64,000 nt of DNA. Origin: Terebella lapidaria. Its lineage: Eukaryota; Annelida; Polychaeta; Terebellida; Terebellidae. Shown one piece after another: positions 1 to 15,449 of this stretch (position 1 is its first letter; each line of letters starts with the position of its first letter). The notes beneath the pieces were generated by a model. The model did no database searches, was not told where the DNA came from, and was given only the letters and a program-made list of their open reading frames with translations. A program made the position numbers and the translations under genes. The stretch spans positions 31,556,165 to 31,620,164 of the forward strand of contig OX424564.1 of the NCBI GenBank assembly GCA_949152475.1, in the 5' to 3' direction.

Positions 1-2043
1 TCCCCTCCATAATGTACAAATTGCTCCCTGTTATGAAGATAGTCTCGAAACCAGTTTAAACATTTGCCCCTTATCCCATAAAACTCTAATTTGTTCAATA
101 ATATGTTGTGATCAATGGTGTCAAATGCTTTTGAAAGGTCTAGAAATATAGATAAAGTGGGTATTTTATTGTCCAGGTATTTTACGGAATCAATTACAAA
201 TTTTGTTATGGCATCTATTGTGCTATGTTTCTGACGGAAGCCGTACTGATTTTCGAAGAGAATGCCATTGCTCTCCAGAAATAGGGCTAGACGTTTGTGT
301 ATAATTTTTTCAAGTTCTTTAGACATAGAGGACAACAATGAGATTGGTCGATAGTTTGTAAACTCTGATTTTTCTTTGGCTTTATATATATGACTTTTGC
401 TACTTTCATTGCCTTTGGAACCTTGCCCGAGTCGAGAGATTTGTTGACAATTATGCTCAAAGGATTACAGATTGTAGAGCCGATATATTTCAAAAGCTTG
501 CAACTAATATTGTCAGGTCCTGAGCTAGTTTTTGGTTTGAGCTTTTTTATTGTTTCTAATACTTCAATTGGGTCAGTCGGGGCTAAGAACATTGATTTGG
601 GGTTGGGTTGTTTCTTGTGATGCAAATAAAATCGGACATCGTTTTCAGGTGTTGCTAAAAGCCTTCGGCAATTAGTTTGGGGTCGGTTGTCTCAGAATTT
701 CCTAATCTAAATTTCTGTGTTATGTCACTTTTGTTGTTGAGTTTCCCAATAGTTTCATTTAGAATTTGCCATGTCTTTCTAATATCTGTTTTGTGCTCAT
801 TAAGTAGGTTTGCGTAATATTCTCTCCTTGTCCGTCTTTTAGCAGAGTTATAAGAATTCCTGTATGTTATATATTCCTTGTATTTTGTGTCTGTTTTAGT
901 TTTGTTGATACATTGTGCATAGAGCTTATTGCATTTCTTTGACATTTTCAAGAGATTTTTATTCATCCATGGTGTTCTGGCAATATTTTTGTAGGGAATA
1001 ATAATGCGTTTAACTGGGGCAACTACATCTAATATAGACGATAGCTTCGTACTTACATAGTCGCATGCGGTGTCAACTGACATAGGTTCATGTATTTGCC
1101 AGTCGACTGCTTTAATATTTGTGTTAATGTCTTGTAATTTGTTGTCATCAATTTTACGACTATATATAACTGTGGATTTTTTTCTCATTTTTGTGAGTAC
1201 TTCGTTTGTTATAGAACACAGTATAGGTAGATGATCTGAAATATCACTAAGCAGTATTGAAGATTTCAGACTGGGATGTTTGTCGATTCTGACATAAATG
1301 TTATCGATGAGTGTGGCACTACTATATGTGATTCTTGTCGGCTTTGTAACTGTTGGAAGTAATTGGTGAGAAAACATAGTGTCTAATAGCTCTGATGTCG
1401 GTTTGTGTGTCTGACATTTCAATAAGTTAAAATTTTGGTCAGTACCAATGAAAATATTTTTGGAAGGTTTAATTTTTGAAAGCGTATCTTGATAGCGTTC
1501 GACCGATAGTGAGGCGTTACTATTTGGGACCCTGTATATTTCACCGATAACAGTTTGTTTGTTACCATATTCTGCTTCTATAGAGATCGACTCATACTCA
1601 CCTTCTATAAACAAGTCTAAATCAGTTCTACGCTTGTAATTGATACCCTCCCGAATGTACATACCTACCCCACCCCTTGTCATAGTTGATCGATTGTTGC
1701 ATATGAATGAGTACCCAGGAATATTAAACAGACTTGCATTACCTTCATGTAGGAAGGTTTCACATAACAAAATGGCGTCAAGCTTTATGTCACTGTTCTC
1801 CAACCTGCTTATGATTTCCTGTAGTTTGACAAACTTAGAGGACAGTGACTGTATATTTAGGTGCATAATTGTCATGTCAGGGGTTAAATGATTGTCCTCT
1901 ATCACTCCACGGATGTCGTCAATGTTAATGTAGGTACAGTTTGTATTTACTTTCAGATCGTCAGTATCTTTCATATACTCATCCAGACAGTTAATATCAT
2001 CACATTGTATGCTACCATTTGTCGCTGTATTGTTATCTATCAT
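1..2043 (-). pseudogene. LINE-A ORF2: endonuclease plus start of reverse transcriptase (broken, runs off left edge)
   Basis: ORF2 of a non-LTR retrotransposon, which nicks target DNA and reverse-transcribes the element. From the ATG at 2043, about 460 codons carry an apurinic-type endonuclease: an early LNIQSL segment, LCETFL, a GGVGMYI stretch and a late SDHLPILC segment with the catalytic SDH. A stop near 655 ends that frame, and the RT begins in another frame (SSGPDNIS, about 520-500). A second frameshift near 390 lies in a TA run. After it the frame reads NYRPISLLS, then YGFRQKHS and [13 protein letters not shown], with RT continuing past base 1. I place it in the Jockey/CR1-like group without choosing a clade. 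At least two frameshifts make this copy dead. Strand and order fit ORF1 at 3655-8681 belonging to the same element. Confidence 0.85.
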
Positions 2044-3654
2044 GGTGGATGATAGAAAAACATGTCTGTCTTTTCCATGAGCTCCAGAGCTGAATCACAC
2101 GGCGAGAAGCGACCATAAACCCACGACCCCCACATTACCCAGACCGGCCGAGAGGCGCCCGGCAGAGACGCGGCCACAGGTCTGACTCCACACTGCACCT
2201 GCAACAGGAAAAGAAATATCACACACACGTTTAAAGTTATTGAAGTCATGGCTGTACTGGAAGTGAGCATGGGTGCGAGCAGATTCAAGTCTCCAAAATC
2301 ACCCCCCCTTCCCTTCTCTATATATAGTTCCATTTTATTCTGTACAAGCATAATCACGTGAGTATAACAAGATAACACATATTGGACAACTGGTCAACAA
2401 AGCACTGTGATTATCACATCCCACATCAGATCGAACATTTCATTAGTGGCATGCTCTGCGAATTAAAATAATTTATGTCTGCACCAACATAATACAAACA
2501 AATTACACGAGTTGGTCATACTGTTTGGGAAACATGAACTACTCGGTATCGATACCATCATAGTACAGACAATGCACATAATATTTGATAGGTCAAAGAA
2601 CTACTGACGAGTAGACCACACAAACATCGATAGGCCTGCAAATTTTATGAGCTAAGACAGTGTGTATTAATCGAAGGCAGGTCGAAGGCCCTGAGTAAGA
2701 ATTTAAGTTACACGCAACAGGACGGTATTAAGGTGAGAAGTTATTTTTGTACAAGGATTATGTTCCAAGACTCCGTCAAGTGGCTTAATACCAGACGGTC
2801 ACTAGGTTGATGTTTCACGCAAATGCAATAGAGCATAAACAAACATGCTACTTTTTACACAATATTCACAGTTCTTGAATATCGAGAAATACACGGAACA
2901 AATATGAGAAAATGTGTGGAACATGAAGTTATATAAATTGCTGATATATCAGACACACATTTCCGTGTTGAGTGTGTTTTTTTCAAAATTTATGAATTTG
3001 AGTTTAATATGAATTTGAGTTTGAGTATGTAGATAGATAAATAAGATTTAAAAAGGCTCGTACACATTGTCACTTGACGTGAATTCTTTGGGTCATATAT
3101 TACATCTACATACAGCGTATTGGACTTCGACAATCACTATGTATTCGAATTTACTGAGTTTCATATGTCATGAGCGTATAAAGCAAGTTTTGGCGTCAGA
3201 AAGTATTGTGAATGACACACAGGGTCATATCTGGGACACATCATAGACTTGAATTATTAAATCAGTTCCAAGTCAGAAGAATTTCCAGTGAGGACCAAGA
3301 CAGTATAGTGCAGATGTACACCAATTGTAGCTCAAATCAGTCAAGTGGGTGGAAACACAAGCTACAGTGAATGCAGCATATTCACCTTCAATTGATTTTT
3401 CACCGATTTGAATTCAATACATTCCATTTGAGAGCCATATATGTATGTAGAACACTATGCTGATACTAGAATATTTGATATCGAACAAAAGCACACGAGC
3501 AAAATACGATCAAAAAGCACACATTGTACAGTGTTTTGTGTCAGGATACAATTTATGTACATGTGGTCAGCACCCGAATGCACCAGTCAAATCAAAAACA
3601 TGGGGCTTCAAACCAGTTCGCTTACTACAGTCTGTATCATTTCACAATAGTAGC
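2044..3654. other. Gap between LINE-A ORF1 and ORF2, no recognised gene
   Basis: About 1.6 kb with no convincing coding signal. It is mostly AT-rich, apart from a GC-rich block at about 2095-2215. On the minus strand that block is preceded by a pyrimidine tract ending in CAG (about 2210), so it could be a host exon or a LINE 5' segment; I cannot decide. This is longer than the usual spacer between LINE ORFs, so extra inserted sequence is possible. Confidence 0.4.
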
Positions 3655-4251
3655 TCAATTTGACTTCAAGCTGTTCCTTGTCTTGTCTAGTAGCTGACCC
3701 ATCCTGTTTTCACCGGTCCACTTGGTCGGATCAGAGCTGTTGTCGTCGCTGAGCGGGAGACCTACACCCCAGGTCCTATCTCGAGAGCACTCGACGAAGG
3801 AGCGTGACCCAGTGTCCAGCAGCTTGGACTTGAGATCCTGGTTCTGCTCGAACTTCGCGGTTACACATTTCTGCAGGATTTGCGGAGCGCACGATTTCCA
3901 GTCAGACGGCATGGGCACACGGTCCCCTATGGATTTGATCGTCAGGGGGTCGGACTCAGACATGATCTCCATGACTGCAATGTCATCACCGGCGAGCTCT
4001 GCCTTGCGGCGTTGGAAATATTGCTCGGTACTGACGTAGGCGGTGTCATCGAGCTTGAGGAGGTCTCGTCGTGTGTAGAAATTACTGAAGGGTGATAATC
4101 TTCCGCTGAAGAGGACATGGTTGGCTGTTACACGAGTACCAAGGGATGATATGTCAAATGGGATCTGGTCCAGCGTATCAATTGTGTATGGCTTGCTCTC
4201 TATGACGAGGGTGTCCTGTATGAGAGAGGCCAATTTCTTTTGTTGTCTGGC
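3655..4251 (-). CDS. LINE-A ORF1, C-terminal part: NADAR domain (separated from its N-terminus by an insertion)
   Basis: About 198 codons, of which roughly 150 (about 4120-3670) match the NADAR/YbiA-like fold. Visible signatures are SPFSNFY, STEQYFQ..KA, an isolated Trp, AKFEQNQDLKSKLL, FVECSRDRTWGVG and GENRMGQLL. Known NADAR proteins are N-glycosidases that act on riboflavin intermediates or remove ADP-ribose from guanine. The conserved Glu of STEQYF and the WG.G motif are present. The frame begins without an ATG, directly at the TAA target duplication of the 4255-8051 insertion. Across that insertion it is in phase with the ORF1 RRM region at 8055-8681, so this is the tail of a LINE ORF1 and not a free gene. 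Stop TGA is at 3657-3655. Confidence 0.85.
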   Translation of the reverse strand, partial: ARQQKKLASLIQDTLVIESKPYTIDTLDQIPFDISSLGTRVTANHVLFSGRLSPFSNFYTRRDLLKLDDTAYVSTEQYFQRRKAELAGDDIAVMEIMSESDPLTIKSIGDRVPMPSDWKSCAPQILQKCVTAKFEQNQDLKSKLLDTGSRSFVECSRDRTWGVGLPLSDDNSSDPTKWTGENRMGQLLDKTRNSLKSN

Positions 4252-4949
4252 TAATGCCTAAGTCACATTTGCACCGATGCCTCCTCAGATGTGGTTACGA
4301 TGCGTGAAAAGGCTGAAATTTGGCCATTTCGGCTGGTCACCCACCGAGCGCCGGAGGGTCGTCCGTGACTGTCGGGCAGCAATCGGACATCGTAGACACG
4401 TCGGTGGAGGCATCGGAAGAAAATAACGCAGAGTTATTTTCTTGCGGCGACCGGTGGAAAAAATGACATCGCCTGTTAATCGTTGTCAGATCTGCCGGCG
4501 ACCGATCACAGCTCCTCCATGTGCCCATCGGGCGCCGAGGGGATCGGCCAAATTTATCGGCCGATTGATATGAGTAGTTCACCAGGCGATCACCGCAGGG
4601 TGTCCTGTCATGCGCCGATGGATGTGTGGTGGGTGTTGTTCAGATTATCGATCGATTTTGACATACGAGACGGTCAACGCAGGGTATCATGCCAGGCACC
4701 GATGGATGTGCGGGAGGTGCTTTTCCGATATTCGGCCGATTTGTACATACGAGACGGTCACCTAGCAGTTATATGTAGGGTACCGTGGGGTTTCCGGTAG
4801 GGCGTGATTGGTTGGCCGGTCGATACCCATTATCTTATGGATAATATTTATTAATTATTTTTTTGTCTATTAATTAATCTTCAATAATTATTTTTTTGTC
4901 TATTAATTTTTGTCTAAGCGATTTGATAATAATTTGTATTAACTGTTAT

Positions 4950-5690
4950 ATTGTCTAAAATTAAACAGGGTCTCCGAAAGTACTGTGAAACCATCTATTC
5001 TAGAAGTGGTATAAACCAAATGTGGATATTGAAAAATTCCAAATCTTTATTGGAATATCTACATGCTCACACACTTTCAAAAGTAACGTCTGTCAAAGCA
5101 TTTGATTCTCCACTTTGTACACAACTATACCTCATTCTGAACTGAAGTCTCAGCTAAAAAAAACTCATCAATAATTCATTTATCTCTAAAAAGGGACAAC
5201 GTCGGTACCAATATATTGTAGTTAAATATAATACTGCTTGAGGCGACTCTGATGCCCCATACAAATATACTGAAATAGATGTGGTAAATATGGTTAACTT
5301 TATGATTGATAATATTTTTGGAATTTGGTGGTCGAATATTTCAACAAACTATTGGTATTCCCATGGGTACAAACTGTGCACCATTATTGGCAGACCTGTT
5401 TTTATACTCATATGCATCAGATTCCATCCAACATTTACAATGAGGAGGTTCTAAGAAACAAACATGTAATTTTAATTACACTTTTCGATATATAGACGAT
5501 GTATTGTCGCTAAATTGGTGACTATTTGGATGTCATATATCCCAATGAACTTGAAATTAAGAATACTTCAGACTCTGCTATTTTTTTCCAACTATCTGAT
5601 GATTCTAACCTATCAATCAGATTGTATGACAAGCGTGATGATTTCTATTCTTCCATAGTCAATTACCCTGGTGGTAATTCAAGCATTTCC
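4950..5690 (+). pseudogene. Penelope-like element reverse transcriptase remnant
   Basis: Broken RT on the plus strand with several frameshifts. Pieces in order are a YSRSGINQMWILKNS-type segment (about 4995-5035), a KAFDS/LYTT-like palm start (about 5095), KYTEIDVVNMV (about 5265), GIPMGTNCAPLLADLFLYSY (about 5350-5410), FRYIDDVLSLN with the YIDD catalytic box (about 5490-5515), and RLYDKRDDFYSSIVN (about 5620-5660). The GIPMGTNCAP plus YIDD combination is typical of Penelope-like elements rather than LINEs. No GIY-YIG endonuclease is visible. It ends where the 3' tail of LINE-B begins, which suggests LINE-B landed in or beside it. Confidence 0.8.
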
Positions 5691-5712
5691 ATTCTATGAG
5701 AAAGTTCGAATA

Positions 5713-7690
5713 CGAACGAACGAACGAAAATGTTTATTAAAGTCACCAGTACATTTGCACCCAGCCCTCAATTTGGGCTTATTAGTGACTATAAACATGG
5801 TAACACAAATAAATTCACTTAAGTATAATTAGTTGTATAAATACCGTTTTCGTGCCTCCCATATGGACATTACATACACAGAAAATTGTTTGGAAAAATT
5901 TTGCATTAAATATATAAACTTGTCTTCATCACAAAAATTTGTAAACTCTTGGTATTTAGTTTGAACATTTCTATAAAATTCATTTCTATATTCATCATAA
6001 AAAGGACACTGACACACAAAATGTATTTCATCTTCCACAGCAAGATAACAGAGATCACATAAACGGGAGGCTACAGGGAGATACTGGTACCTACCTGTTT
6101 CTAACTTTAATGGTAATATTCCAAACCGTAATTGTGCTAAAATGGATCTACAGTTTTTACTTAAATTATATTTGATATAATTCTCCGTACAAAAATTCTC
6201 TTTAAACTGCACATAAGTCCGTAGTTTTGGTTTCATATACATACAATGTAACCAATCTAAATACATGATATTCTCAAACTTATGCTTAGCTAATTGAAGA
6301 TTAACAGACCTCAAGTTAAACAAATGATCATTAAATTCTAACATTGAAAAAATATCTGCAATATCTTGGGTCCATGTAGGGGTCCTTGAGAACAAATCCC
6401 ACAGGAGAATTTGTTTTGTTAGTCGATTATCATTCAAACTCATTAAACGGTTCCAGTATCTGAGTAAACTGTACATATGTCTATATTTAGGTGCAACCCA
6501 ACCCATGTCCCCCTGCAGAGCCGCTGTCGGCGCATATCTATGTACACCCAAGTAAAAACGTTGTGCCCTATTTTGAACGGTTTCACATTTATCATAATAT
6601 ACACCTCCCCATACCTCAGATCCATAGTCCATAACAGGAATAACTCCTGCGTCATACATTCTACTAAAAGTATTATACCCTACATCCTTGTTACATTTAA
6701 TTTTGTGAATAATGTTACCTAAAGCCCTACCTGCAGCATCAGCTAAAATGTTCACACCAGTTTTAAAATCCATATATTCATCAAGCACAAAACCAAGGTA
6801 TTTATATTTGGATACAACATCAATATTATCAGTCCCAAGACAAAAGGTATGTGAAGTACGATCTACATTCCGTTTTCTGAAGTGAATTATCTTAGATTTA
6901 CCAACATTAATATCCATCCTCCATTTTTTTTACACAAATAGTCCATTTTTGACAATATACGTTGCAAATCTTTTACATTTTCACTCAAAAGAACAACATC
7001 ATCAGCATATAACAAAATACTAACCAAGTCTTCAGATACACTCATACCAACATTCATTGCAAGTATTTCTTTAGCGATATTATTAATAAATAGATTGAAC
7101 AACATAGGTGATAGGTTGTCACCTTGACGAACACCAAGATCATTCTCGAACCAACCAGTATATATATTTTCAGCCAAACGAACACATGAAATAGTATTTT
7201 TGTACATAGAACTTACAGCATGGTATATTTTACCTCTAATATTATAATTTATCAGGACAGCAAGAAGCATTTGTCTATTAACACGGTCAAATGCCTTTCG
7301 AAAATCAATAAAGGCCACGAATGTGCTATGCTTATGTTTTAACCTGTTTCGAACAATTGTAGTTAATACAAATAAATGATCAGTACAAGAACGTTGTTTG
7401 CGAAAGCCATTCTGTTCATCTAGTATTATATTTTTAACATCACAAAATTTGACCAGTCGATTATTGATAACACCACTATATAACTTTGACACAGTGGATA
7501 ATAAGCTAATGCCCTTGTAGTTCAGCGGAACACTGGGGTATAATAATATAATAATAATCAGATTTATTTTATCATCATTTGGATTTTTGGGAATAGGGGA
7601 AATAAGTGCATTCAGCCATGGGAATAATACTGTAATTTTGCGTGGACACTCTACGCGCCATCTAATGTGTATCTGGCGGGCAACCACCGA
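5713..7690 (-). mobile_element. LINE-B, 5'-truncated non-LTR retrotransposon
   Basis: The element reads on the minus strand, with its 3' end at about 5713-5730 as a short TTCG microsatellite tail (seen as GAACGAACGAAC on the plus strand). It has a ~100-bp 3' UTR and the RT ORF upstream. The 5' edge is lost somewhere in 7610-7690, where sequence changes to the GC-rich arm of the surrounding DNA element. There is no endonuclease or ORF1, as expected for 5' truncation during target-primed integration. Confidence 0.75.
5829..7640 (-). pseudogene. LINE-B ORF2: reverse transcriptase and C-terminal zinc-binding region, one frameshift
   Basis: The first piece (about 7640-6887) is RT. Landmarks are ALISPIPK, NYKGISLLSTVSKLY, NGFRKQRSCTDH, FIDFRKAFDRV, the VRQGDNLSPMLFNLF box and LLYADDVVLLSE with the YADD catalytic site. 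A frameshift in an A8 run (about 6924-6931) moves the frame, and the second piece (6917-5829) continues with INVGKSKI, KYLGF, DYGSEVWG and a C-terminal C..C......H....C segment ending EDEIHFVCQCPFY. The element had full RT and tail domains before truncation. The stop near 5829 is followed by a short 3' UTR. Confidence 0.85.
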
Positions 7691-8054
7691 CTGCCTTTAT
7701 AAATCGGAGACAGACTGTCCGGCACCCGTCCGGCAATCGGCCGATGTTTCGCCCGCCAGGGAAGAACCGTCCGGACGTCAGACGGTCACCGGCCGATGCC
7801 TGCTAGGTGATTGGTTGGTCTCCCGTAGGCATCAAGGTACACATTCTCCCCACATTCCTACTTATGCCGGCCGGTCAGTGTACGATGTCCGGATAGGTGT
7901 CCACCGGTGATCTGCCAATGCCCGGTGCTTTCATGACCACTTGAGAGATATGTGAAAGATACCTGAAAAAAGTTACCGGCGGCCGGAACATCGGTGAGAA
8001 CCACCGATGTATTCGCATCGGCCGGCGACCGGTGCAAATGTGACCTAGGCATAA

Positions 8055-8681
8055 CTTGAACACTGGCCTCAGTGTGTTCCTTCTTTGGACTATTTCTTTA
8101 GGATATTGTTCATTGATATAGACGGGATTAGGGCGTGACGCTAGGCTTTTGGCAGCATACAGAACCATTTTCTTGGAACTATGTCGGGAGAAGCGTGCTA
8201 TGATGTCACGGGAAGTGTTCTATTTTGCCTTACCCAATCTGTGGCAGCTGACGATGGAGATGTCAGTGACGTCCAAGCCCATGTCTGTGGAGAAAAGCTC
8301 AGTGAGTGTCCGTCGAATGTCATCCTCTGACTCATCCTCCTGTTCGGCTAGTCCCGAGAAAATCAGATTTTCGCGCATGGTATAACATTCCAGTTTTATC
8401 AGGCGATCTCTGGTGTCCTTAGTTTTGTTTTTCCACAATTCCATGAGAGTTCGCTGTGTTTTCAAATTTTGTTTCAGGTTTTCATTTTCATCAGATACAC
8501 GCTTCATGTTGGTAGATAGTTCTTTAATTGTTGAGGTCAGAGCATTTTTTATTTCCGTTTTGGCTTTGTTTACCATGGACTTCAATTCTTCTTTCAGAGA
8601 AGAAATGATTTCTTCCTTCAGTGAGTTGACCCATGAGGGGGGCTGGTCGGGTAATTTGTCTCGAGTTGTTGGGCCAGACAT
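8055..8681 (-). CDS. LINE-A ORF1, N-terminal part: coiled coil plus RRM-like domain (one in-frame stop)
   Basis: The first ATG of this frame is at 8681; an upstream GTG is less likely. About 209 codons precede the insertion point. Residues about 15-110 are a charged heptad-rich coiled coil (SSLKEELKSM, ENENLKQNL). Next come the ORF1p RRM signatures ECYTMRENLIFSGL, a DDIRR.L.ELF helix, ISIVSCHRLGK and the C-terminal YPKEIVQRRNTLRP. These match LINE ORF1 nucleic-acid chaperones that trimerise and bind element RNA. A TAG at 8222-8220 interrupts the frame once, but the same frame continues. At 8052 the DNA-element insertion begins, and the frame resumes at 4251 with the NADAR part, giving about 408 codons in all. 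Confidence 0.85.
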
Positions 8682-9007
8682 TGTTTGTGTGGCGTTCACA
8701 GTTCAGGTATGTATGTATGTGATTATAATAGTATATTTCGCCTGGTGCTCAGCCAGGCATGAAACAATGGCTTCTTGTTTCAATGATTGACTTTCAACAT
8801 GTAAAGTTATTTTGTATGTTGACAATGTCACAGAATAGTTGCCAGTTCATGGTATCCAAATATCCAAAAAGTCATCTATATATCCTTAGGTGTCCATTAG
8901 TGGTAAGAAGTAAGTCCTGCTTGCATTGTGTATTGGGGTAGGAGGCAAGGATTCAGGAGACTAGAAATAGCACGTTCACTGCAAGACCGCCATTTAACAG
9001 TCATATC
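8682..9007. other. LINE-A 5' flank, no gene seen
   Basis: Probably LINE-A 5' untranslated sequence near 8682-8760, grading into unannotated DNA that ends where the ~95-bp satellite starts. No promoter or ORF could be supported. Confidence 0.3.
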
Positions 9008-9903: not shown

Positions 9904-9948
9904 ATCTGAGCTAGTCTCGGATTATCGACCCAGACCTGACCGGCATTG

Positions 9949-12525
9949 ATGGCATTGGCCCCGGGAGCCTCCCGCGGTGAGCCACTCGACCCTACGGATG
10001 ATGAAGTGACGATCAATCCGAATTCGGCCTTCCGACCTTCCGGGCCTCGCTCAGTTGCCATGAGCGATACAGTTCCACTGTCGCAGGAGCAACAACCGTC
10101 CGGCCTTTTCGACTCCATTGGCGACCATTCGTCCCTGAGATCGTTTTCGCCGCCTACCGACCTGGTGCAGGAGTTCCTAGACGAAGACCCGCTCGACCCG
10201 TCACATACAGTAAGTGACATTCTGCGTGCGCACGCTAGAGCGTACTCGGCCACGCCGGCTAGAGCGACCCAGAAAAGTGACTTTGCCGACAGAAACTATA
10301 CGCGCTCACGTCAAAGAGCGAGCGTAGATTGTGATATCGACCCAGAACAATTAGCAGTGGACGTTCGGCCGGTAACCATAGACACGTCAATGGTTACGCA
10401 CCCACCAAGTAACTCTCGGATACGACAGTGGGTTTGTCAGTCTGACAATGTTCCGGAATCGACCCCGCCGAACGCTTATTCGGCCAATCGACCCCTGGCG
10501 CCGTCCATGACGCCGAGACAACACGGCCCCGCGCCAGAAATGTACTCACGCATACCGACCGAGCCTACGGTGGTAGAGTACACACGACCCAGCCAGACGG
10601 GTGCGACATCCGAAGACATCCTGATGACGACCGCTACCCGGATCGCGACGCCGCTACGACAACAACGACCCAGCGACACAACGGCGGAACCTCGCGCCAC
10701 CATGCGACAAGCGCGACCCCGACAAGCACCCTCGACATCAAGTCGCCGACCCTGCGACCCCGACACGCCGACTTCCGACACACGCGCTCCCGCGCCGACC
10801 ACGCACCGACCATCGCCGACTACCGGAGAACAACCGCGCTTCGATCCGTCGCAAGATCAAGTTGTGTCTGCTCCGGCAGAAAGTGTTGTGCAAATGATCG
10901 AACCTCCGATCTCACAATCAGTCGGAAACACCAACGGATATGGTGTACCGCCAGTCGGATACCCTGGCGCAACAAGCGGTGTTCCAAATGGAGTAGCTGT
11001 CGGATACTATTCACCGCATGTCGGCTACGCGAACCCACCGCCTGGATATGGTGGCGTTCCCAGCGTGATCGCTGACACCGGCTATCATGGTACACAACCC
11101 GGATTAGTGTACCATGGTGTATGCCCGGATGGATCGGTATACCGATATCCACCACCGGCTGTATTCCCACCCTCAGTCGGGATACCATGGGTGACGCCTC
11201 CATACAGTCAACCGGCCCCCGCTGCACAAGCACCACACGACCCCAGCCACACGACGGCACCACCCGCCGCATCGCTCGCCGTCTCCGCGACGACAGCACC
11301 GACCGCCCCCGCTAACGCGACCCCGATCGGCCCAGATACGACGGCTCCGGCGACTTCGGCTGTTCCGACTCCGACGGCCACTACAGCGACTACACCAGTT
11401 GCGGTGAGTGTTGACACGCCCACGCCACAGAGACTCACGTCTGAGCCCCAAACGTTGGCTACGGCTAAGATGGCTCAATGGCGTGCGACCTTTAAGGAGG
11501 GCAATCTCACTCAATACGTTCGGAGTTTCGAACAATTCGCTGCGGCCTTTACTTACTCCGACCTCAACAAGACGACGACCTTCCGGAGCACGCTACGCGG
11601 CCGCGCTGAAGCGCTAGCTCTCAATATCCCGGTCGCAACTCCCTGGGGAGAGTTCCGTCGCCAACTCCTAGAGGGCTGGGAACCCGAGCCCCGTCGACAG
11701 TCCAAACGGGACGATTTCCCGTTCCTCAAGCGGGAACGAAAAGAGGACGCGGAACACTACATGGAGCGACTCCAGGCCCTGGCGGAGCAAGTGTTCGACG
11801 ACGTTACGCCAACGTCGCGGCAACGAACTGTGATTGCGCAATTCGTGAACGGCCAACCCGACCCCATCGCCGATAAACTGTGTGCCCTCACTTTTAACAG
11901 TTACAGTGAGGCACTTACGGCCGTTCTCAAGGTAGAGAGTCGTCAACAGAGGACAGCCAGAGATCGACATCGAGGCACACGACGTGCTGACATTTCCGCA
12001 AGCGGATACGCGGAAGACGACCCTGTCAATGAGGAACTGTCCTGTGCCATGGGACAAGTCACTCAGGGGGAAACACTAACCCCAGAGCAAATTGCGGCCT
12101 ACTACGACCCCGCGGACAGTGACACTACCGGCCTACAAGGTTGCGACGAACACTCAGTGCCAACCAGCTCACGCGAGTGGGTGGCTGAAGCCTTCCAGTG
12201 CGTCCTTAGTGACGAGAATGGACTGTGCGAGGAAACGGCTATCTTCTCTGTCCTACGAACAACGGCCCCGATGAAAGGTGATCGACCCCCGCAACCCGGA
12301 CGACCCATGGTTTGCTTCTTTTGCAAGAAGCCCGGCCATCGCTGGATGCGATGCTTTCGGCTTAAGGATGTGCTAGTACGTAACGGCATGAAACCGCTAG
12401 CATTTCGGCCCAATGGTTCAGGTACTGACAGAAGGACAGCTCAAGTGTTGTCAGTACCTAACCAAACCGGTAACCAAACTAAACCGGCCCCACCAACACC
12501 TCCGACCCCGTCGTCAAACCAGTAG
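9949..12525 (+). CDS. gag: Gag polyprotein
   Basis: 858 residues from the first ATG at 9949; a TTG just before it is not needed. The first ~500 residues are low-complexity, rich in Pro, Thr, Ala and Ser, with GY/PP-rich repeats around residues 330-430. The capsid-like part (about residues 505-680) is recognisable by KMAQWRATFKEGNL, PWGEFRRQLLEGWE and the LKRERKEDAEHYMERLQAL helix typical of retrotransposon gag. A zinc knuckle C790-x2-C793-x4-H798-x4-C803 lies near the C-terminus. The protein should form the particle and bind element RNA. It ends in TAG and overlaps the open pol frame by 43 nt (12483-12525), with pol in the -1 frame. I saw no classical slippery heptamer in the overlap, so how pol is expressed is open. 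Confidence 0.9.
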   Translation: MALAPGASRGEPLDPTDDEVTINPNSAFRPSGPRSVAMSDTVPLSQEQQPSGLFDSIGDHSSLRSFSPPTDLVQEFLDEDPLDPSHTVSDILRAHARAYSATPARATQKSDFADRNYTRSRQRASVDCDIDPEQLAVDVRPVTIDTSMVTHPPSNSRIRQWVCQSDNVPESTPPNAYSANRPLAPSMTPRQHGPAPEMYSRIPTEPTVVEYTRPSQTGATSEDILMTTATRIATPLRQQRPSDTTAEPRATMRQARPRQAPSTSSRRPCDPDTPTSDTRAPAPTTHRPSPTTGEQPRFDPSQDQVVSAPAESVVQMIEPPISQSVGNTNGYGVPPVGYPGATSGVPNGVAVGYYSPHVGYANPPPGYGGVPSVIADTGYHGTQPGLVYHGVCPDGSVYRYPPPAVFPPSVGIPWVTPPYSQPAPAAQAPHDPSHTTAPPAASLAVSATTAPTAPANATPIGPDTTAPATSAVPTPTATTATTPVAVSVDTPTPQRLTSEPQTLATAKMAQWRATFKEGNLTQYVRSFEQFAAAFTYSDLNKTTTFRSTLRGRAEALALNIPVATPWGEFRRQLLEGWEPEPRRQSKRDDFPFLKRERKEDAEHYMERLQALAEQVFDDVTPTSRQRTVIAQFVNGQPDPIADKLCALTFNSYSEALTAVLKVESRQQRTARDRHRGTRRADISASGYAEDDPVNEELSCAMGQVTQGETLTPEQIAAYYDPADSDTTGLQGCDEHSVPTSSREWVAEAFQCVLSDENGLCEETAIFSVLRTTAPMKGDRPPQPGRPMVCFFCKKPGHRWMRCFRLKDVLVRNGMKPLAFRPNGSGTDRRTAQVLSVPNQTGNQTKPAPPTPPTPSSNQ

Positions 12526-15449
12526 GGGAAGGTGCTGAGGAGCAAGGACCTTCCAGACAACAGGACAACGTTCCCCGCTCCACATCTGCGGTTGTCACGA
12601 CTACTGTACCGGTAACGACACCAATAACGACCCCGCAGCCGGCCCAGCCCACACCTCAGCTCCTTGAAGGGGTGTGTACAAAATGTCAAGCTCCGACCCC
12701 GAAATCGGCCTCTTTTCATGAAGGGGTGTCCGCACCGCGGCCACAGCGACCACCACGTGGAGACCGTCGTCCTGAAGGGGTGTCACCCCCGACCGCCAAC
12801 GGCACCGGAACGGACAGCATGTCCGAGATCGAGTGGATCTCCGACGACGGAGGATTCTACGCTTTTCCGAGTGGACCGGAATCCAAACTGCCGCCTCTGC
12901 ACACACTCTTCCGGCCACCGCTAGACGACCCCGAAATTCCGGCTGTCATCAACAACTCCAGCGCCACCAATCACAAATGCTGGAAGTTGCCGGTACACGT
13001 CGGAAACAAGACGATAAAGGCTGTACTCGACTCCGGAGCGCAGATCTCCCTGCTCCGACGCGATCAGCTACGTCACGTCCCCGCTGACCAGCGACATTTG
13101 CGGTCTACTTCGGCTATTATTCGTGACGTCACCGGACAGTCAAGCCCGATCGATGGACTGATCGACCTCTCAATACAGGTCGGAACTAACCATATGGTCG
13201 TAACCTTTTGTGTGGCTGACATACATGACGACATGATTCTCGGCATGAACTTTTTTCGGCAAGCTCACGCTGTAGTGAATTACGGTGAAGGGACGATACA
13301 GGTACACAAAGAAATCCTGTTCGCACATAAAGACATTGAGGCCAATGTTGTCAGAATGGCCGTGCGACGAGCTGTCACCGTCCCCGCACGCAGCGAAGCA
13401 ATAGTGGAGCTGGTCCCGACTTCCCGAGTTCGAGTTCGACAACACCCGAGGATAGTCCAGCCACTTACGACCTTTCCCGAGGAAACCGACCTCATCATGG
13501 GGAGAACACTTACGACCCTGAATCGGCAGTGCGTAAAGGTGTCGGTAGTCAATCCAGCAGATACCGGCATGACGCTCACCCGTTCCGACCCTGTCGCCAT
13601 AGCAAGCCCTGTCGAAAGTGTCGTCGGAGCTCTGCCACGACCCGGAGAGGAGCCCGACCCGGCCACGGTAGACGCCAGTCACTACCGCGACCTACCGCCA
13701 CATCTACAAGAAATGGTGGATCGCGCCGGACTAGCGCCGGAACAGCATCGGCGTTGCGCCAACCTGGTTCACCAATACCAGGACACATTTATGCACCCAG
13801 ACGGCCAACTGGGACGGACCCAAGTCGTCCAGCATAGAATCGACACCGGCAACTCGGCCCCAATTCGACAACGACAGCGACGCGTCCCTCAGGCACAGCA
13901 AAGCATCATCGACGAGGAGATCGACAAGATGCTCCGCTTGGGGTGTATTGAGCCGTCCGATTCGCCCTGGAGCGCACAGGTAGTGCTCGTGCGGAAGAAG
14001 AACGGACAAGTACGCTTCTGTGTCGACTATCGGCTCCTGAATGACGTCACCCGCAAGGATTCGTATCCCTTGCCCAACATTCAGGATACTCATGACGCCC
14101 TGGCAGGCGCCAACTACTTCTCGGCCCTAGACCTGGCCTCTGGCTACTGGCAGGTTGAAGTCGACCCCAGCGACAGACCGAAGACTGCCTTCGCCACAAG
14201 GAAGGGACTCTATCAGTTTAAGGTCATGCCATTCGGCCTTAGCAACGCCCCGGCAACCTTCGAACGGCTTATGGAGACCATACTCCGTGGTTACTTGTGG
14301 ACCCGGTGTATGTGCTATCTCGACGACGTGATAGCTTACGGCAGAACATTCGATCAGGCACTCGCAAACCTGGAAGCGGTCCTGGATCGAATCAGATCGG
14401 CAGGCCTGAAACTTCAGCCCAAGAAGTGTGAGTTATTCCAACGGGAAATCTTGTACTTAGGGTTCATAGTGAGCGGCCAAGGAATCCGAGTCGACCCCAA
14501 CAAAGTCAAAGCCATCAGAGAATGGCCGACCCCGTGCGAGATCACCGACGTCAGGGCTTTCCTTGGTTTCGCCAACTACCACAGGCGATTCATCAAGGAC
14601 TACGCTGAGATCGCTGAACCTCTCGTAGCGCTTACCCGAGGTGAATGCCACTTCACTTGGGGACCGGCCCAGCGACGAGCTTTCCAGCGACTCCGCGACG
14701 CCCTCATCAAGGCGCCCAAGCTCGCTCATCCGACCCAGAATCCGGAGGACTACTTCATCCTCGATACGGATGCAAGCGGCTTTGCTGTGGGAGGAGCCCT
14801 CTCACAAAGGGTTAACGGGAAGGAGATCCCCATCGGGTTCGCCAGCAAGACCCTGTCCCGGACCCAGCGGAACTATTGCACCACCTATCGGGAACTACTG
14901 GCAGTAGTTGAGATGGTGCAACACTATCGGCACTACCTCTGGGGTAGGAAATTCCTCCTCCGAACCGACCATAGCTCGCTAAGGTGGCTGAAAAACTACA
15001 GCGACGCCGACGGCATGCTCGCTAGGTGGCTCGCCAAGCTACAGCAGTATGACTTTCGGATAGAGCATCGACCCGGAAAATTACACGGTAACGCCGACGG
15101 CTTGTCACGGTGCCACAGTTGCAAACACCAAGACTGTCCCGGACGACTCGTCACACCTCCGACCGACCCAGAAACAAGTTCCGGAGAACTTCCAGTTCGT
15201 CGGATAACTGTTGTTCCGACCCAGACAAGGGCAGACCTCCTGGACAGTGATTCGATAACATCACCGGTCTTGCCCCAGCTAGTTTCGGCACGCCAAGTTG
15301 TTCGAGTCCGTGCTTTGGACGCCACACTTGATGGACAAAAGTGGCTTTCGGACTATTCGACCCAGGACATTGTCGCGGCACAGCAAGCCGACCCCAGCGT
15401 CGGAAAAGTGCGGCAATGGATACTAGCCGGCACCAAGCCCGACTCATGA
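12483..15449 (+). CDS. pol: Pol, first part: protease, reverse transcriptase, RNase H (ends at an in-frame TGA)
   Basis: Open from just after a TAA at 12480 to TGA at 15447-15449, about 988 codons counted from 12483. The N-terminal ~90 residues are low-complexity. Aspartic protease: LDSGAQISLL with the catalytic Asp at about residue 183, and a second motif ILGMNFF. RT: the FCVDYRLLN and ALDLASGYWQ segments, FKVMPFGLSNAP, and YLDD at about residues 612-615. RNase H: FILDTDASGFAVGGALS (Asp 761), a later ELLAVVEM and RTDHSSLRW. The reading frame stays open directly after the TGA into the integrase part, so the stop interrupts pol between RNase H and integrase. Either it is a nonsense change in a young copy or it is read through. 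Confidence 0.95.
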   Translation, partial: TGPTNTSDPVVKPVGEGAEEQGPSRQQDNVPRSTSAVVTTTVPVTTPITTPQPAQPTPQLLEGVCTKCQAPTPKSASFHEGVSAPRPQRPPRGDRRPEGVSPPTANGTGTDSMSEIEWISDDGGFYAFPSGPESKLPPLHTLFRPPLDDPEIPAVINNSSATNHKCWKLPVHVGNKTIKAVLDSGAQISLLRRDQLRHVPADQRHLRSTSAIIRDVTGQSSPIDGLIDLSIQVGTNHMVVTFCVADIHDDMILGMNFFRQAHAVVNYGEGTIQVHKEILFAHKDIEANVVRMAVRRAVTVPARSEAIVELVPTSRVRVRQHPRIVQPLTTFPEETDLIMGRTLTTLNRQCVKVSVVNPADTGMTLTRSDPVAIASPVESVVGALPRPGEEPDPATVDASHYRDLPPHLQEMVDRAGLAPEQHRRCANLVHQYQDTFMHPDGQLGRTQVVQHRIDTGNSAPIRQRQRRVPQAQQSIIDEEIDKMLRLGCIEPSDSPWSAQVVLVRKKNGQVRFCVDYRLLNDVTRKDSYPLPNIQDTHDALAGANYFSALDLASGYWQVEVDPSDRPKTAFATRKGLYQFKVMPFGLSNAPATFERLMETILRGYLWTRCMCYLDDVIAYGRTFDQALANLEAVLDRIRSAGLKLQPKKCELFQREILYLGFIVSGQGIRVDPNKVKAIREWPTPCEITDVRAFLGFANYHRRFIKDYAEIAEPLVALTRGECHFTWGPAQRRAFQRLRDALIKAPKLAHPTQNPEDYFILDTDASGFAVGGALSQRVNGKEIPIGFASKTLSRTQRNYCTTYRELLAVVEMVQHYRHYLWGRKFLLRTDHSSLRWLKNYSDADGMLARWLAKLQQYDFRIEHRPGKLHGNADGLSRCHSCKHQDCPGRLVTPPTDPETSSGELPVRRITVVPTQTRADLLDSDSITSPVLPQLVSARQVVRVRALDATLDGQKWLSDYSTQDIVAAQQADPSVGKVRQWILAGTKPDS

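Follow-up and report, generated by a model that had tools for sequence, protein, structure and literature searches.

A 64,000-nt stretch of the Terebella lapidaria genome (contig OX424564.1, positions 31,556,165 to 31,620,164; hereafter the window) contains a long interspersed nuclear element (LINE) whose first open reading frame (ORF1) ends in a NADAR domain. The encoded protein is a type II, human L1-like ORF1 protein, consisting of a coiled coil, an RNA recognition motif (RRM), and a C-terminal domain (CTD), to which a YbiA-type NADAR is added at the C terminus. The copy in the window is a dead member of a large, recently active LINE family.

A NADAR domain at the end of a LINE ORF1

On the minus strand, the N-terminal part of ORF1 starts with a Met codon at 8681 and remains in phase through a TTA at 8054-8052; the NADAR frame restarts at a second TTA (4254-4252) and runs to a stop codon at 3657-3655. 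Between them lies an insert of 3797 bp (8051-4255) with 23-nt inverted ends that are 96% complementary and with TTA on each flank. Both TTA copies are in ORF1 phase, giving 209 + 199 = 408 codons once the insert is removed. The downstream piece (3655-4257, minus strand) matches NADAR (Pfam PF08719, E 3.1e-32, 112.5 bits with a cut-off of 35.1) and displays the motifs SPFSNFY, STEQYFQ, WGVG, and GENRMG. A preliminary description of the window, made from its letters and translations, had proposed a single ORF1 of about 408 codons split by a 3.8-kb insertion and had listed the same motifs; both points hold. Its ORF1 frame at 8681-8055 is likewise in phase from the Met but carries an in-frame TAG (8222-8220, minus strand) that was overlooked, and the window copy is therefore broken twice, by the insertion and by the TAG. 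Also overlooked were the CTD between RRM and NADAR, which completes a full type II ORF1, and ORF2 fragments downstream on the same strand.

An uninterrupted sister copy was retrieved by searching the 761.6-Mb assembly that contains the window (contig G000:C11) with the window NADAR. This locus, L045 (G000:C16:27611427-27612023, minus strand), is 99% identical and lies in an open frame of 415 aa from stop to stop, or 408 aa from Met, ending in the same NADAR (111.3 bits against PF08719). Aligned by blastn, L045 matches window positions 8992-8048 at 98.0% and 4254-3211 at 96.9%, with nothing between the two blocks and a single TTA. The RRM-CTD ORF1 and the NADAR were one frame, and we regard the fusion as real with near certainty. 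That the NADAR is a separate host gene adjoining an unrelated ORF1 fragment by chance, a possibility raised in the preliminary description, draws on the two pieces lying 3.8 kb apart within the window; it is ruled out by L045 and by many one-frame relatives, and we give it virtually no chance.

The two halves also find fused proteins when used separately against public proteins. The RRM half alone returned four matches, three of 393-460 aa with a precomputed NADAR annotation and one 226-aa fragment, while the NADAR half matched three proteins: a stand-alone NADAR (196 aa) and two longer proteins (421 and 436 aa) that extend far to the N-terminal side of the domain. The N-terminal parts of the 421- and 436-aa proteins align with the RRM half of other fused proteins.

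Domain assignments rest on relatives as well as on the window copy. Human L1 ORF1p ends after its CTD. Profiles and structures of relatives show an RRM and a CTD resembling those of human L1 ORF1p (PDB 2yko), and in the relative P0006 a modeled helix at residues 22-111 is the predicted coiled coil ahead of the RRM; the NADAR following the CTD sets this family apart from the human protein. The predicted NADAR fold is that of YbiA (compared with 8bau and 2b3w), and Glu, rather than Asp or His, at the catalytic position of the last strand places it in the YbiA subfamily. The catalytic Asp of DarT1-linked NADAR antitoxins is not seen; all covering loci have Glu. Pfam Transposase_22 (PF02994) was not among the matches of the ORF1 pieces or relatives in single-sequence scans. 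The parts of the window copy are as follows.

8682..8991, minus strand: LINE 5′ untranslated region, with a 5′ boundary (8991) that L045 shares (blastn alignment starts at 8992)
8052..8681, minus strand: ORF1 part 1 (start Met, coiled coil, RRM, start of CTD), from the frame, with RRM and CTD placed via profiles and structure of relatives
8052..8054, minus strand: left TTA target-site duplication, from the junction letters; a single TTA in L045
4255..8051, no strand assigned: inserted element with terminal inverted repeats (arms 8030-8052 and 4254-4276), absent from L045
5829..7696, minus strand: remnant of a different LINE nested in the insert, in two frames (RVT_1, E 1.7e-30, in 6887-7696)
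4252..4254, minus strand: right TTA target-site duplication, from the junction letters
3655..4254, minus strand: ORF1 part 2 (end of CTD, linker, NADAR with Pfam match at 4095-3664, stop)
4024..4026, minus strand: Glu aligned with E43 of Phytophthora nicotianae NADAR, role from PMC11543638
4003..4005, minus strand: Lys aligned with K50 of the same protein, role from PMC11543638
3790..3792, minus strand: Glu aligned with E125 of the same protein, the mark of the YbiA subfamily (PMC11543638)
2095..3654, minus strand: ORF1-ORF2 spacer of ~1.56 kb with many stops in the ORF1 frame (six other copies have spacers of about 0.5-2.1 kb)
655..2094, minus strand: ORF2 part 1, endonuclease (EEP), from a weak Exo_endo_phos match below cut-off and homology to NADAR-linked ORF2s
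287..691, minus strand: ORF2, start of the reverse transcriptase (RT) in another frame of a frameshifted copy; the remainder would fall past the window edge

The ORF2 frame at 287-691 has no Pfam match when scanned alone. Within the insert, the second frame of the nested LINE remnant (5829-6929) lacks a Pfam match, as do five other frames of 84-129 aa, among which no transposase was seen. From its TTA duplication the insert is presumably PIF/Harbinger-like; its inverted ends are GC-rich, and it has itself been struck by a LINE. Farther along the window, on the plus strand, a Gypsy-type long terminal repeat (LTR) element occupies 9940-15449, with a Pol containing aspartyl protease, RT, and RNase H at 12483-15449 and, ahead of it, an 861-aa frame that is gag by position and has no Pfam match. 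In L045, another repeat seems to interrupt the copy downstream of ORF1, at ruler position 1077 and below (minus strand).

Copies, downstream ORF2s, and related ORF1s

A search of the genome for PF08719 gave 973 first-look candidates; all 150 that were scored lie above the cut-off, so that NADAR occupies at least 150 places, 89 of the scored ones in open frames of at least 380 aa. Sixty loci were fetched, the 30 best by Pfam score and the 30 nearest to the window NADAR (window included), and 35 of these have a frame of at least 380 aa. Profiles built for this analysis find RRM and NADAR together in all 35, the NADAR being present through the selection of loci and the RRM not. RRM-NADAR in one ORF, which the preliminary description had suggested seeking in the host genome, is present there in these 35 frames. 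Approached from the RRM half, the 30 best of 150 listed matches include 28 with a listed NADAR match downstream on the same strand (window included; compared by eye). The two without a NADAR match look like damaged copies: L085 breaks inside the NADAR, and L086 leaves the family sequence at the NADAR start. The preliminary description had held that copies lacking NADAR would tell against the fusion; close copies of this LINE have the domain in 28 of 30 cases, while more distant ORF1 relatives do lack it (Mytilus P0017, P0018, and P0020; L080-L082 and L084 in this genome). The loci L064 (C8) and L065 (C9) show no difference over 2952 nt, and L066 and L067 are 98.7% identical over 2970 nt, which indicates that the family moved recently and that at least 1.5 kb downstream of ORF1 moved along.

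The element is a LINE by its second frame. In all six downstream stretches that were read (L074-L079), ORF1 is followed on the same strand by an ORF2 with an apurinic/apyrimidinic (APE)-type endonuclease (EN) and RT, divided over two frames in L074, where the endonuclease match is below the Pfam cut-off. By coordinates, the distance from ORF1 to ORF2 is ~0.5 kb in one stretch and 1.5-2.1 kb in five. The window ORF2 is related to those of L074, L075, and L079, with 44-45% identity over 409-469 aa for the frame at 2094-655 and 47-55% over 30-96 aa for that at 691-287. An ORF1-only element (HAL1 is of this type), raised by the L045-window match ending at 3211, is not supported, since L045 exits the match at an apparent insertion and spacer and ORF2 are present in other copies. 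Among 15 sequences, the spacer aligns between L045 and the window (93.5% over 446 nt) and otherwise only over 54 nt, between L062 and L066; this long spacer is hardly conserved between subfamilies, yet it moves with the element. Beyond the ORF2 of L079, a 295-aa RT fragment of another LINE lies on the opposite strand.

The linked ORF2s differ widely. The L078 ORF2 matches human L1 ORF2p over EN and RT with E 4.6e-85, against 4e-18 for L075, 3e-17 for L079, and 3e-20 for L077 at best; L075 and L079, the nearest ORF2 relatives, stand in here for the window's own RT, which lies mostly past the window edge. The L078 ORF2 aligns with other NADAR-linked ORF2s in the RT part only (22-27%), whereas that of L077 aligns with L075, L076, and L079 at 26-27% over 840-995 aa. 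Ahead of the L078 ORF2 is a 460-aa frame with a NADAR and an RRM-half match of E 4.4e-5. Judged by these alignments, NADAR ORF1s in this genome are not confined to L1-type elements and accompany clearly different kinds of ORF2. We take the RT motifs of the window type to resemble those of the CR1/L2 group. A study of Jockey-group ORF1s (PMC4120745), whose text makes no mention of NADAR, describes a reticulate history of ORF1 and places type II ORF1s in the CR1 and L2 lineages.

Identity distances of the RRM and the NADAR agree across 29 proteins (18 chosen genome representatives and 11 public ones; Mantel r 0.81, 0/5000), which fits inheritance as a unit. In a NADAR tree with viral and two stand-alone NADARs (43 of 44 rows, V_L006 dropped as short), a single LINE clade received an approximately unbiased (AU) p of 0.125 by a quick method, and the free tree groups stand-alone P0021 and fused P0016 with genome group A. 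These trees neither show nor reject that LINEs captured NADAR only once. Thirteen loci on viral contigs match only the NADAR part of the query (query residues 259-416). On three IMG/VR contigs (L005, L008, and L009), an open frame of ~2,800 aa has the NADAR as its C-terminal part.

One of the relatives lacking NADAR revealed a sibling design. L080 (169-1674), an RRM-half match, carries a C-terminal UPF0029 (IMPACT) domain (E 1.7e-17). PF01205 gave 381 candidates in the genome; all 150 scored are above the cut-off, many of them in repeated frames of 450-650 aa. Five UPF0029 frames were read (L080-L084), L080 and L084 having been picked through RRM-half matches and the other three from the UPF0029 list alone; among the latter, L081 and L082 have an RRM, in place of which L083 shows a PHD finger. 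NADAR is absent from all five. Some type II-like ORF1s of this genome end in UPF0029/IMPACT in the place of NADAR. L083 is perhaps another kind of ORF1: at 1080-2201 it shows a PHD finger (below the Pfam cut-off) and UPF0029, followed by an apparent start of an SGNH-type esterase (by eye). Our literature search found no paper linking UPF0029 with retrotransposons, and the IMPACT domain was absent from the matches listed for ORF1 and retrotransposons.

Active site, selection, and proposed function

Mutants of the E. coli C7 enzyme, as reported in PMC11543638, show that the equivalents of E43, K50, and E125 (P. nicotianae numbering) matter and that Arg can stand in for Lys in vitro, though not in a rescue assay. 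Of 60 loci examined, 59 cover each of these positions, and all 59 have Glu, Lys, and Glu there. The 11 fused public proteins have Glu at the first and third positions in every case and Lys or Arg (nine and two) at the second. The catalytic Glu, whose conservation the preliminary description had proposed to test, is thus conserved throughout both sets. For dN/dS, which it had proposed to compare with 1, values below 1 are seen in the pairs that could be used: 58 loci whose NADAR is of sufficient length fall into 23 clusters at dS <0.1, and four unsaturated pairs among cluster representatives give 0.24, 0.08, 0.18, and 0.35, the last pair having members in common with two others. For the RRM, eight pairs gave 0.17, 0.06, and six values of 0.67-0.90 between far groups, where dN exceeds 0.9 and is saturated. 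Over the whole ORF, 3 of 595 pairs were usable, all between L014 and one cluster, with dN/dS of 0.076-0.079 for the NADAR, 0.055-0.058 for RRM plus CTD, and 0.14-0.16 for the coiled coil. Near-identical pairs pool to pN/pS of 0.48 for the NADAR (59 pairs) and 0.43 for the RRM (38 pairs), as expected if many copies are dead.

Fold and active site favor a working hydrolase, and the NADAR is most likely such an enzyme carried on the element RNA. In the mechanism we propose, trimers of ORF1p would coat the element RNA and accompany it into target-primed reverse transcription. The tethered NADAR might then hydrolyze an adduct placed by host ADP-ribosyltransferases, either ADP-ribose joined by an N-glycosidic bond to guanine in the RNA or cDNA or a related conjugate, which would otherwise block translation or reverse transcription. 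The domain would thereby act in cis as an element-borne counter to host modification. We rate this role, an eraser of host-placed ADP-ribose, as a serious candidate that falls somewhat short of probable. Of NADAR substrates, N2-guanine ADP-ribose is the best supported according to PMC11543638, and N2-guanine DNA ADP-ribosylating activity is reported from six edible clams (PMC11209040). The clam enzyme CARP-1 is a presumed, untested NADAR target in the words of the PMC11543638 authors. A molluscan guanine writer together with a LINE-borne eraser would make a testable pair.

Several observations weigh against the eraser. In 8bau, the solved complex with ADP-ribose, the pyrophosphate is held by R79 and R93, and the equivalents of these two residues are not conserved here: across the 59 covering loci the R79 site is D in 28, N in 16, K in 13, and E and R in one each, and the R93 site is A in 30, S in 26, and C in 3. 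The 11 public fused proteins vary similarly, with D in four, K in two, R in two, and E, G, and A at the R79 site, and A in four, S in two, G in two, and Q, C, and K at the R93 site. The ligand may therefore not be ADP-ribose in the usual pose. A genome search for a Scabin-like guanine ADP-ribosyltransferase returned no match and is uninformative, as the control had no match either. Findings from clams may not apply to this host. NADARs outside DarT1 operons are described in PMC11125620 as inefficient DarT1 antitoxins though active in vitro, so that activity on guanine-ADP-ribose would not alone show a protective role.

The altered pyrophosphate contacts would also suit a domain with small molecules or RNA ends as substrates (reactive riboflavin intermediates, NAD-capped RNA, or cyclic ADP-ribose) instead of a defense mark on nucleic acid or protein, tuning signaling or RNA processing around the element ribonucleoprotein. 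In E. coli, YbiA acts as an N-glycosidase on riboflavin intermediates (PMC11543638), and for viral NADARs, chiefly of phage, soluble ADP-ribose derivatives have been suggested as substrates (PMC9503650). The latter source argues, however, that NADARs of eukaryotic RNA viruses target macromolecular ADP-ribose, and a free metabolic job would not explain why many divergent families have the domain fused to an RNA-coating protein; we find this role doubtful. Changed ligand contacts are equally compatible with a binding module for RNA, ADP-ribosylated partners, or a host RNA-processing complex, kept with no need for turnover; RNA-processing factors are among the interactors of nematode SNA-3, a protein with three NADAR domains (PMC9303266). 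All three catalytic positions are invariant over 23 clusters, more than a pure binding surface would require, and SNA-3 function is lost on mutating the homologous residues, although its authors allow for misfolding; a module of this kind is unlikely. Finally, LINE ORF1s are known to shuffle modules (PMC4120745), other ORF1s in this genome have UPF0029 at that position, and near-identical NADAR copies pool to the pN/pS given above, all of which would fit a passive passenger after a chance fusion. NADAR dN/dS well below 1 in the four usable pairs, the invariant active site, and co-divergence with the RRM make a passenger quite improbable.

Known systems and significance

The fusion itself is already in print. 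The preliminary description knew of no such LINE architecture, whereas PMC12477816 (2025) mentions NADAR in ORF1 of several Tx1 LINE families of Crassostrea gigas (Repbase families), with RNA processing as the proposed role, and also in an Ectocarpus Gypsy Pol. This was the only paper on NADAR and transposable elements among the literature matches listed, most of which were judged by title. What is new here is the occurrence of NADAR ORF1s with clearly different ORF2 kinds, the constraint on the active site, and the UPF0029 sibling ORF1s. The C. gigas Tx1 ORF1s likewise hold a YbiA-family NADAR; in the parts of PMC12477816 that bear on them, they receive one sentence and a supplementary alignment. 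In the present genome, the ORF2 relatives of the window family are far from human L1 ORF2p, while the L078 family is L1-type. The Ectocarpus element is another retroelement that acquired a NADAR, but it is an LTR element with the domain in Pol, and its database matches are almost only bacterial according to PMC12477816. P. nicotianae NADAR (8bau) and E. coli YbiA (2b3w) share the fold and the catalytic Glu/Lys/Glu with the present domain, which differs from both in being fused to an RNA-binding ORF1 and from 8bau in the unconserved R79 and R93 equivalents. NADARs in polyproteins of animal positive-strand RNA viruses (PMC9503650) also ride on a mobile RNA-based replicator and are proposed removers of host ADP-ribose; they adjoin an RNA-dependent RNA polymerase and have no ORF1.

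As described in PMC11125620, the job of NADARs across eukaryotes is unclear. Proof that ADP-ribose is placed by hosts on the nucleic acid of retroelements is not known to us. A multiplying LINE with an invariant-site NADAR tied to an RNA-coating protein offers a defined substrate pool and a direct test of function. One speculative and rather doubtful extension starts from the spread of NADAR over at least 150 places and at least two very different ORF2 kinds, and from the UPF0029/IMPACT of other families. In this animal lineage, ORF1 might serve as a platform exchanging small enzyme or regulator domains at a fixed post-CTD place. NADAR would there erase ADP-ribose from element RNA or cDNA, in an arms race against host ADP-ribosyltransferases of the guanine or PARP type, and UPF0029 might likewise blunt a host translation-stress response (GCN1/GCN2). 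The presence of UPF0029 at the same place in sibling ORF1s points to ORF1 C-termini as a source of counter-defense or regulatory domains not yet described.

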